This document shows, piece by piece, positions 12,601 through 36,359 of a DNA stretch of 64,000 bases. The notes under the pieces are model-generated. The model worked only from the letters and a program-made list of their open reading frames with translations. It made no database searches and was not told the origin of the DNA. The DNA is from Lepraria neglecta (lineage: Eukaryota > Ascomycota > Lecanoromycetes > Lecanorales > Stereocaulaceae). Numbering within the stretch: the stretch's first letter is position 1; each line of letters begins with the position of its first letter. The position numbers and the translations under genes were made by a program. The stretch lies in assembly GCA_033220425.1 (NCBI GenBank), contig CM065646.1, forward strand, positions 4,099,501-4,163,500, written 5' to 3'.

Positions 12601-15065
12601 ACCAAGTGTAGTTCTGTATGCCCTCTTGTTCGTAGGTGTGTTTGTGTTGATCTCGTCGCCGAAGCAACGTTTCTTTGGACTCGGTGTATTCTGGTAGCTG
12701 TACCAGGCATAAGGGTGTTGAGTCGTAGTAAGCTTCGTATAGATATGTGTGATTGTAGGGTCGAGTCTTCTTGTTCCTAGTATATCAGTCTGGTTTATCT
12801 ACTTCGACTTGCCACGTAAAAGTGAAGAGCTCTTGGTAGAGTAGCTCCCTGAAGTCTTTATGCTGTCTCTTTGTCCAAGACTTTCCTGTCGTATGCGCCC
12901 CGACCTTGAACGCATTAATATATGCGTGGTCGAGCATCCAGTACCGGTTAGGATACCAGTTCCTTATCGCCTTACGCTGAGTTTTGAAGGCGGAGCGATG
13001 CTGTTCGGCGATATCCACACCACCCATATTGAAATTGTAGTCGTTGAGGTAGTGAGGTATTTCTAGTTAAGCTCGTGAACCAAGGCCTTCGAAAGGCTTA
13101 CGGGCAATTGCTGTGTTTGATGATGTGGCTAGCCTTCTTCGCCAGCTCTTGATGATATCGGTGCTTGATTGACGGTGTGTACCGTCGATAATGAGAGCAC
13201 CGTATTGTTGTCAATCCATCCAAGGGTGTAGTACGCCATCCACCAGTATTGCCATAAGCATACCCCACGGAAGTACGTGCCCGTATTTCTCTTTCATTAC
13301 CTGAGTAACTGCTGGAAAATCCACGCTAGAGTCCTTCCTCGTAGTCCCACAAGCCCCGACTCCACGTATCTTCAAGGCCCGAAAGGGAGGTGTGCTGGTA
13401 AAGAAGTTATCGAGGTAGATCGTATACGTCTGTCCGTTTGGTAGAGGTTGGAGTGTAAGGGCTAGCTGATACAGTACAGCTCCTGTATCAGTTAATAACT
13501 TCTGCTGTTCTAGCTCACCTGTCTTCCAAAAGCGTGAACAGAACATGAAATTATAGAGGTATCCTCCCTCACATAGAGCCCATATCTTAAAGCCTTGCTT
13601 GATAGGCTTATTCTTTATCTTCATAGTATGCTTCGACCGACTGAAGAATTTTAACATCATCTCGTTAACAGCGACGTTGCTACCGGGTATCCAATGGGAT
13701 TGACAATTCGCTCGCAACGTAGATATCGGAGGCTCCATCTTTCGCCACCATATCTTATCTACGTGTCGTAGTTCTTCAGTCGTCATCTTGTTAATTTGCT
13801 CTGTTGTAGGCTCAAGGGCGTCTTCGCTATAATGAGTGCAGTGGAGGAATCGCTGTAGCTGAGCAATGTTTGATCCATAGAGCAGGTGTGTGATTAGGCC
13901 CTAGATAGAAAATTTGGTAAGGTAATTAACGGGTTCAATACTACTTGCCTTACCAGTGAAAAGATTCTTGTGCCAATAATCCTCCATTTCGCCCTCTCGA
14001 TGTATATTCATATATATCATGGAGCCTATAAAGACCTTCAGCTTATTAGCGTTTGTTGCCTACCAAGCCCTCTAGCTTATATCCCAATTATTATGGTGTA
14101 GTCTCGCCACAGTAGAGTCTCTTCCACGCTCTATAGCTCCCTCCTTCAAAGAATACGCATTCGTATTAGTAACGAGTATCTGCTATATCTCTTCTGTCTA
14201 GAATAATGAAAAGATCGCAAGTGGGCTGTCGAGGTTGAGATCTGCGGGGTAAATCGGCTGAGGTTCTCGTAGTGGGCCTTGTTTAAAAGGCTCAAAGGCG
14301 ACTGTTGTTGCGTCGATTAAGAGTAGCAGTAAAGGCGTCTTCTAATAAATTACCAAGGGAGCCCTTTTCTGGGAGCCTCTGATTCTTAGCAATCTTCTTA
14401 GCTGCTTTTAGCTGTACCTTTCTCTTTATCTTGGTAACGGGTTTACCGTCTTCGTCTTCGCTTTTGAACCCAACTAATTGAGTAGACTCCACTGTGTCGA
14501 TTGCTGCGTCTAGTACCCCTAGAACTGAGTCGCTAGTGACAATTGCAACCACTGTATCCGAAGGAACCACTGCTATTACCGGTAATTCTTCCTTTACTAG
14601 CTTTCTTCCTCGCTGTCCGGTATAAGCTTTCTTCGCTTTGGCGGGGGCTTTGGCGGGCTGGAAAGCTGAGTCCTTAGTGGGCTCGCTGCTCTGATTGGTA
14701 GGCTGTTTAGTATCACCGTCGCCGCGGGGCTGCTCGCCCTCAAGGGGGATGTAGGTACGCAGCTCGTCTTGGGTGAGCCCTTCCTGGTACCGAAGAGGCG
14801 GCTTGACAGCTCGTCGAGTAGGTCTCGTCGTTGCTCTATGCGCGGTACCATCAAATCGATATGTATCCGATGATATAGCCACTCCTCCTCTTTCCCCTCC
14901 TTCAATTGAGATTGGTCTGTCGGTAGGCCGTCGGCGAGGTCCTGAGCTAATTGTAGGATTAATAGTGACATTTCCTCCTTCCAGCTCGGTAGACAGCTCT
15001 TGTCGTAGTAGAGCATCATATAGAGCATCATGAGTAAGTCCGGGATATGCCATTAGCCTTAGCAT
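12600..15065 (-). mobile_element. piggyBac-family DNA transposon, degenerate
   Basis: The minus strand encodes a piggyBac (DDE_Tnp_1_7) transposase in pieces. The N-terminal region at 15065-14292 is Ser/Thr/Pro- and Lys-rich. The start of the catalytic region near 14060-13980 reads KVFIGSMIYMNIHREGEMED. The catalytic core at 13786-13211 has NVAVNEMMLKFFSRSKHTM, KPIKQGFKIWALCEGGYLYN and IYLDNFFTS. The C-terminal part at 13027-12785 has MGGVDIAEQHRSAF. Between 14290 and 13900 the frame is broken by several TAG codons where Trp or Gln would be usual (for example before TEEI and at WDIS-x-RAW-x-ATNAN), and frame changes occur at about 13200-13030. No TTAA-flanked terminal repeats could be fixed, so both ends are approximate. 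Not autonomous. Confidence 0.85.
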
Positions 15066-15455
15066 ATTGAAGACGGCTTGATTGATTCTCTATGGGAGAT
15101 GCTTGCTATTTATGCGTACTAGTCAGTAGGGCTGAGTAGGGCTGGGAGGTGATTTATGCTAACGATTAGCGTCGTTGACGATATATTACCCGTATATACT
15201 AGGCCTCGTATGGTGGAGGTATTGGTGGGAGTGGTAGGGCGAAAAGGGCGAAATTGGTGAAAAGGGAGACCATCTCTGACTCGGGGTAAAATCTATACAT
15301 TATGTGTACAATAGAAGCGATAATTTGGGTGTAGTTCTCATACAAAATGTCGTACATACTGTCAATTGCTGGCAGGAGCTTTCTATATAATTACTTTCGT
15401 CTCTACATCGACACAGGAACAAACTCCAAAGCCTCCAAGCCCGCTTTATGCGTTA

Positions 15456-16006
15456 CTAATTCGTACACTGGCACATCCTGAATCATCGTCAGCGTTCTTG
15501 TTTCTGCAAAAGCAGAGGCAACACACTTCTGGCCATTATCACTGAAACTTGGAGCACCATATCCAAGGCTTGATGCCGACCCCACAGGACAATGGCGGTG
15601 CGTGCAATAGCTATCAGTCTGGCAACTGCCAAGGTTGGCATTGCTTCTTGGAACTAGCTGCGGAAATTATTGCGAAGGCGCCAAATTCTGTTTCTTGACA
15701 TAAACACACCGGCAAACCCTGCACGAACGTCAGCACTATTGTTGCTACGGTATAGGAGACCAAATACTTTTTGTTGCCCTCATTCACGCCAGGAGCCCCG
15801 TATTTCAAGCAAGATGCAGGCAGTTCAGGGCACGGCTGGGTTTTGCAATCCTGGTCTGTCTGGCAAAAAGTGTACGGGTCGTCGTCGTGGATGGCTCTCC
15901 CTTCAATGTGTTGGAGGTTTTCTATGACCGAGGCGGTGGTAATCAGATGTACTCCAACCAACGTGAAAGCCAATGTGAGTCTAACGCAACAGGATGAGAG
16001 ATACAT
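15456..16006 (-). CDS. Small secreted cysteine-rich protein with two tandem homologous domains
   Basis: Four exons: 15768-16006, 15706-15718, 15527-15657 and 15456-15477; GT-AG introns of 49, 48 and 49 nt; 134 residues. Residues 1-25 or so form a signal peptide (LTLAFTLVGVHLITTASV). Then two 38-residue domains align without gaps: domain 1 starts FCQTDQDCKTQPCP, domain 2 SCQTDSYCTHRHCP; both share C-Q-T-D-x2-C-x4-C-P-x3-A-S-x-L-x-Y-G-A-P-x7-K-x-C-x-C (17 of 38 identical). Domain 1 has six Cys; domain 2 has Ser at the fourth. In both, an intron of 49 nt splits the codon of the Lys before the final C-x-C at the same phase, so the exon and its intron were duplicated together. I do not recognise the family; effector, antimicrobial or surface roles are all possible. 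Without splicing the frame looks broken, so it is easily missed. Confidence 0.75.
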
Positions 16007-23910: not shown

Positions 23911-23997
23911 TTGCCTCAGTACCAAGCTACCCCCCCCGGCTAACCCGATAGGGGCTTAGCCGGGGGGTAGCTTGGCACGTCTGAGGTACTGAGGCAA
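23911..23997. mobile_element. 87-bp hAT-like MITE with 8-bp target-site duplication
   Basis: The unit is bounded by the inverted repeat TTGCCTCAGTACC ... GGTACTGAGGCAA, and contains an inner inverted pair (CCAAGCTACCCCCC / GGGGGGTAGCTTGG) separated by a short loop. It is flanked on both sides by the perfect direct repeat AGTTAGAA (23903-23910 and 23998-24005). An 8-bp duplication is the hallmark of the hAT superfamily. The unmutated duplication suggests a fairly young insertion. No coding capacity. Confidence 0.85.
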
Positions 23998-24032
23998 AGT
24001 TAGAACTTAGTAGAGGCATCATGGAGGAATTC

Positions 24033-24348
24033 GGCTCCCAGCCAGTTATTTCTAGGAGCATTTTGGTCCGGATACAGGGGAGACACATGGATTCTCAGGC
24101 CTACAACGACCACTCGAGCCCTACACGGTTTTGTAGGCACGGCTCCTCAGCCAGTTGCTACTGAGAGCATTTCGGCCCGGATACAGGGGAGACACGTGGA
24201 TTCTCAGGCCTACGACGACCACTCGAGCCTATATGGTTTTGTAGGCACGGCTCCTCAGTCAGGTACTACTAAGAGCATTTCACTCAAGCCCTAAATCGCT
24301 GTAGGTACGGTCCCCGGTCAGTTGCTACTAGGGACATTCGACTCCAAT
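24033..24348. repeat. Tandem repeat with 108-bp unit
   Basis: Two full units (24033-24140 and 24141-24248) are highly similar, for example both contain atacaggggagacac and cgaccactcgagcc. Two shortened units follow (24249-24308 and 24309-about 24348), each beginning GGTCC/GGCTCC and containing the CAG(T)CAG..TACTA core. It lies between two MITE-like copies. No protein is encoded. Confidence 0.8.
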
Positions 24349-36155: not shown

Positions 36156-36359
36156 GATGGATAGGGAATATCTGACAAGTCTTCCAATCTCGTGAGGTGT
36201 TCAAATGATGGATAGGAAATATCCGACGAGTCGCCCAAGGCCACGGAGGGCTCAGGCGATGGAGAGGAAATATCCGGCGAGTCTTCTAAGGCCACGGAGT
36301 GCCTAGGCGATGAATTGGAACTATCCCAACAGTCTTCCAAGGCCGCGCAGCCCGCAGGC
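36156..36359. repeat. 51-bp minisatellite, four units
   Basis: Units begin at 36156, 36207, 36258 and 36309 with GATG-A, each 51 bp, for example gatggagaggaaatatccgg. As 51 is a multiple of three, the minus strand reads through all units as a 17-residue repeat (VALEDSPDISSPSPEPS and variants) that stops before the phosphatase ATG at 36112. It lies in the promoter or leader of that gene. Confidence 0.85.

Follow-up and report, generated by a model that had tools for sequence, protein, structure and literature searches.

The window analyzed here is a stretch of 64,000 nucleotides from Lepraria neglecta (assembly GCA_033220425.1; 42.0 Mb in 11 contigs), corresponding to positions 4099501-4163500 of one contig. 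It encodes an actin-family protein, a P450, a Sec23/Sec24-type protein and a neutral ceramidase, as well as, on the minus strand at 16006-15456, a candidate gene for a small secreted protein. For this locus the first-pass annotation had proposed a four-exon model with introns of 49, 48 and 49 nt; we reproduced both its coordinates and its product of 134 residues. The features, in window coordinates, are:

15456..16006, minus strand: whole gene model, four exons, ATG to TAG, 134 residues
15768..16006, minus strand: exon 1, encoding the hydrophobic N-terminus (about residues 7-22), a spacer and the bulk of domain 1
15719..15767, minus strand: intron 1, 49 nt, GT..GCTGAC..CAG, interrupting a Lys codon; 30 of 49 positions identical to intron 3
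15706..15718, minus strand: exon 2, a 13-nt microexon contributing V-C-R-C; 10 of 13 nt are the same as at the start of exon 4
15658..15705, minus strand: putative intron 2 (uncertain), 48 nt between the domains, without CTNAY and with an in-frame stop if retained
15527..15657, minus strand: exon 3, encoding a linker and the bulk of domain 2, with Ser in place of the fourth Cys
15478..15526, minus strand: intron 3, 49 nt, GT..GCTGAC..CAG, interrupting the equivalent Lys codon; the frame switch of the relative P0004 (below) falls inside it
15456..15477, minus strand: exon 4, encoding M-C-Q-C-T-N-stop
15706..15868, minus strand: domain 1 (residues 47-84), C-x6-C-x4-C-x6-C-x13-C-x-C, containing intron 1
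15465..15627, minus strand: domain 2 (residues 95-132), the domain 1 pattern without the fourth Cys, containing intron 3

All three introns of the model are GT-AG, and skipping exon 2, such that exon 1 is joined to exon 3, leads to an immediate stop. Hydropathy of the N-terminus peaks at 2.24 (residues 12-22), and a signal peptide is predicted from this profile. The mature chain would be short and Cys-rich, with 11 Cys after residue 25 of the 134-residue product; domain 1 has six, and domain 2 in the window has five, an odd number. Domain 1 has a net charge of +1, domain 2 of 0 and the chain after residue 25 of -2; the slice taken for domain 2 was offset by one residue, with no effect on its charge. 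These values argue against a classical cationic antimicrobial peptide.

The two 38-residue domains align without a gap and are identical at 17 of 38 positions. Their BLOSUM62 score lies 9.0 s.d. above the mean for shuffled domain 1 and was reached by none of 100,000 shuffles. At the DNA level the two units align ungapped at an offset of 241, from first Cys to last with the intron included, and match at 96 of 161 nt. When the 64-kb window was compared with itself at every offset between 100 and 599, keeping the best ungapped 161-nt match per offset, this match ranked first, followed by two other repeats at 95 and 91, then by 77 (the same repeat as 95), with the rest at 71 or below. Between the exon parts of the units, 56 of 101 nt are identical, compared with a mean of 25.1 and a maximum of 39 in 2,000 shuffles. 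For the introns, shuffles gave a mean of 12.4 identical positions, and none of 10,000 reached the observed 30. GCTGAC occupies the same position in the two introns, which outside GT, GCTGAC and CAG still agree at 19 of 38 positions, a figure attained by 12 of 10,000 shuffles.

Agreement between the domain exons, by codon position, is 19/33, 21/33 and 14/33, lowest at the third (14/33 versus 40/66, P = 0.09). The corresponding counts for intron 1 against intron 3 are 10/16, 8/16 and 12/17, with no coding pattern. Divergence between the domains amounts to a dN of 0.52, with dS undefined and the synonymous rate therefore inestimable. Because ungapped similarity spans the intron, and because the introns lack the codon pattern that the exons have, we conclude, judging from the sequence, that a coding domain and its intron were duplicated together inside one gene. 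The first-pass annotation had suggested such a duplication from the repeats and from the intron that splits the same Lys codon in both copies, and each of these observations was borne out.

We searched 5.8 billion predicted proteins, allowing E values up to 10, and found four relatives, each a single sequence on one contig; a third search brought nothing new. They are P0001 (204 aa), which matches the product of exon 1 from GRAIH onward, P0002 (128 aa), P0003 (98 aa) and the more distant P0004 (98 aa). The absence of any homolog had been named beforehand as grounds for abandoning the gene model; these four were found instead. All four are unspliced frames, in line with the earlier suggestion that gene callers would miss the locus. 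Spliced fungal proteins are presumably scarce in the protein database, so a count of four says little about the true breadth of the family. A search of the source genome by protein and by DNA (six frames, best candidates scored) revealed no second copy. Four pattern matches on viral contigs were inspected, none of which is a relative. Within what was searched, the distribution appears narrow: one locus in the source genome plus the four relatives.

The most distant relative bears directly on the introns. In frame 2, P0004 tracks the window along exon 3 as far as the donor, with 28 of 45 residues identical and the final two lying beyond the donor; from inside intron 3 onward it matches frame 1 instead, across the branch site, the acceptor and exon 4. 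This second match has an E value of 7e-5 with one gap, in a tblastn comparison against a 707-base stretch alone with composition correction off. The intron in P0004 would measure 56 nt, versus 49 in the window. With the acceptor set by homology, the tail of P0004 is compatible with M-C-Q-C-T-N-stop at 7 of 7 codons, as was 1 of 200,000 random strings. The frame switch strongly supports a real intron 3 and is the strongest evidence for it; through the likeness of the two introns, it also supports intron 1. P0004 retains exon 3, with the 5' portion of the intron no longer recognizable, which points to long-term constraint on the exon. Elsewhere in the window, a script that required a branch motif, and thus does not show how frequent motif-less introns are, proposed candidate introns of 45-60 nt in six rows (five distinct places), with CTAAC, CTGAC or CTAAT 11-16 nt before the 3' end. 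Introns 1 and 3 are of the same kind, with CTGAC 11 nt before the end.

The relatives also differ from the window, and from one another, in the state of the two domains. In domain 2, all four relatives have the first four Cys, including the fourth, which is Ser in the window; all four likewise have, close to the first Cys, a second acidic residue that the window has lost. Altogether, the window's domain 2 exon departs at four positions, the fourth Cys among them, where the close relatives agree or nearly agree. By this comparison the loss of the fourth Cys, which the first-pass annotation had proposed, is derived in this genome, and since that Cys and the acidic residue are kept in 4/4 relatives, constraint on domain 2 has been loosening here. 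In P0001, and in the known part of P0002, domain 1 is instead the divergent one, at positions where the window, their own domain 2 and P0004 agree.

Counted by eye across the window and the three close relatives, amino-acid columns vary at 9 of 44 in exon 3, no more rarely than in the stretch running from intron 3 to shortly after the stop (3 of 27). Recent purifying selection is not visible in these four sequences, and the variation fits fast evolution or relaxed constraint. Just beyond the stop, the frame of P0001 is shifted against that of P0003, with a compatible run of 16 residues (maximum 6 in 300 shuffles), as would be expected for untranslated sequence at the 3' end.

Downstream of the gene lies a degenerate piggyBac-type transposon at approximately 14908-12629 (DDE_Tnp_1_7, E 9e-24), with four other partial copies in the genome at 68-73% identity. 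A repeat of about 106 nt, also downstream (15059-15164), has at least 36 further matches in the genome at 80-97% identity (40 of 59 candidates scored). Seven pairs of this repeat have a common orientation and a spacing of 1.2-1.5 kb, suggesting that the paired copies are the ends of a small repeated element. Fast-evolving secreted proteins commonly have transposon-rich flanks, and such flanks are no evidence of function. Farther away, Tandem Repeats Finder reported an array at 36156-36344 (51-nt unit, 3.7 copies, 77% matches). At about 23995-24264 lies the runner-up among the window's 161-nt self-matches (95/161, offset 109), which is absent from the Tandem Repeats Finder list. Rfam (at gathering thresholds) and ARAGORN (bacterial code) gave no matches on the window.

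Several other readings of the locus must be weighed against an intron-bearing gene. The unspliced frames in the database could be the real proteins, in which case there would be no introns and the C-x-C motifs would have arisen by chance. In P0001 a single open frame of 204 codons covers both domains, no codon choice allows a GT donor at either intron 1 or intron 2, and none gives a CTNAY branch site in the tested intron 1 stretch (0 of 8,192 codings); intron 3, moreover, is open in the window and in the three close relatives. Against this, P0004 switches frame inside intron 3 and ends in a tail compatible with C-Q-C-T-N-stop, the window's own frame is not open across both domains, introns 1 and 3 show no coding pattern, and the same splice gives a C-x-C to both domains. 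We regard an intronless family as very unlikely. It is possible that P0001 has lost the splice donors of introns 1 and 2, leaving its domains in one frame and its introns turned coding; the codon choices of P0002 permit GT donors at both. Gene structure, as read from these sequences, differs among the relatives, and the four-exon model fails in P0001. A separate concern is that the whole locus is a decaying, unexpressed pseudogene beside transposons, as the element and repeat immediately downstream, the conserved residues lost from domain 2 and the missing splice signals of P0001 might suggest. We consider this unlikely, given that exon 1 still has its hydrophobic N-terminus, domain 1 its full six Cys and introns 1 and 3 their signals.

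The stretch between the domains poses the closest question. The first-pass annotation had called it a 48-nt intron; its GT-AG ends (donor GTTTAT) and its length stand as described, but the window sequence holds no CTNAY branch site within it, and P0003 has an open frame running from this stretch into domain 2. Its 48 nt are divisible by three and leave exon 2 and domain 2 in a common frame with a single stop between them, so splicing is needed solely because of that stop, and in P0003 a coding linker would suffice. The stretch might thus be a coding linker that has acquired an in-frame stop, such that this genome makes only the predicted signal peptide and domain 1, a product of 96 aa, with domain 2 decaying; the four departures of domain 2 from its close relatives are what a relaxed domain would show. 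Against a linker, the stretch is one nt shorter in P0001 and P0002 with the domain sequences kept (P0002 being seen from late domain 1 onward), and the domains of these two would fall out of register once intron 1 is spliced. In addition, the domain 2 frame of the window is still open, and the signals of intron 3 and exon 4 are kept. On these sequences, splicing of intron 2 appears somewhat more likely than a nonsense mutation, though not by much, and we hold the interrupted linker to be a tentative but serious alternative. More doubtful still is that the stretch serves as a splice-controlled switch, yielding one domain when the 48 nt are kept and two when they are removed. The domain pair would then have been sorted differently in each lineage, with P0001 a case in which the introns became coding, their signals gone and both domains in one open frame, and in which the degrading domain is not the one that degrades in the window.

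No family in Pfam or NCBIfam scored above its cut-off, and the claim that no known family has this pattern stands at that level. The best Pfam entry was Nodulin_late (PF07127), at 14.5 bits for the spliced protein and 16.4 bits for P0004, against a gathering cut-off of 30.4; it matched weakly in 6 of 7 rows of alignment A3 (best E 0.012). Late nodulins are a plant family with a C-x-x-D-x-D-C-like start and a C-x-C end. The proteins described here resemble these and the nodule-specific cysteine-rich peptides in both features and in being small and, as predicted here, secreted, but they fall well short of the cut-off, and nodulins are plant-based. We rejected a Nodulin_late match on another contig of the source genome (C2), which lies below cut-off (E 0.065), has a stop inside it and has another frame open through it. 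A PDB sequence search with the spliced protein gave no match up to E 10. Two weak matches to the A3 profile (E 0.11 and 0.68) we took as chance, the better one being to a 21-residue stretch of Bm4233, a nematode protein.

Cysteine-stabilized alpha-beta defensins of the plectasin type have a C-x3-C helix motif, a C-x-C end and three disulfides. The C-x-C end and the expected number of disulfides are shared here, but the helix motif is absent, the spacings being x6, x4 and x6. A knottin has at least six Cys in one domain, with disulfides I-IV, II-V and III-VI forming the knot; in the window, domain 1 has six Cys and domain 2 five. Knottin-like effector candidates are described in fungi, among them Avr9 of Fulvia fulva and several Venturia inaequalis families (PMC9632046), and knottin-fold toxin-like proteins of Beauveria bassiana have been assigned by predicted structure (PMC12099005). 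Compared by description, the present protein, as predicted, is similar to the former in being small and secreted with three disulfides expected per domain, and to the latter in being fungal, secreted and Cys-rich; it differs from those effector candidates (PMC9632046) in carrying two domains in one protein. Because fungal knottin-fold effectors and toxin-like proteins have been described (PMC9632046, PMC12099005), the kind of protein is already known. No title or abstract start among the literature matches listed describes this particular gene.

The pattern resembles that of knottin-like and nodulin-like small proteins. No named family fits, and the protein appears to belong to a new family with a narrow distribution, though of a familiar kind. 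By analogy, the product is most likely a fast-evolving, disulfide-stabilized secreted protein of the effector or antimicrobial type. Because that kind is known, and because the charges are not those of a classical cationic antimicrobial peptide, we favor a secreted binding or effector-type protein.

We conclude, with a probability of roughly 0.68, that the locus is a fungal gene with introns, encoding a small secreted cysteine-rich protein whose two domains came from tandem duplication of a domain together with its intron. At the sequence level, the ancestral unit was a domain of six Cys with a single phase-2 intron immediately ahead of the terminal C-x-C, and tandem duplication of this unit with its intron gave the two-domain protein. 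Each intact domain would fold independently, with three disulfides, in a knottin-like or nodulin/NCR-like manner. The N-terminus suggests export from the cell, and the protein may act outside it through a binding partner that sits on a surface or belongs to another organism, in the manner of effector-type or competitor-directed secreted proteins. In this genome domain 1 is probably the functional one, domain 2 having lost one Cys and other conserved residues, and in P0001 and P0002 domain 1 would be the altered domain.

By itself this opens no new class of biology. Its interest lies in a tidy duplication of domain and intron and in two domains that appear to decay differently by lineage: it clearly illustrates, on a small scale, tandem duplication of a domain along with its intron, in a family of predicted secreted proteins that annotation has seemingly overlooked, hidden as it is by unspliced frames. 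If expressed, the family would be a compact system in which introns and disulfides are gained and lost stepwise across related sequences.
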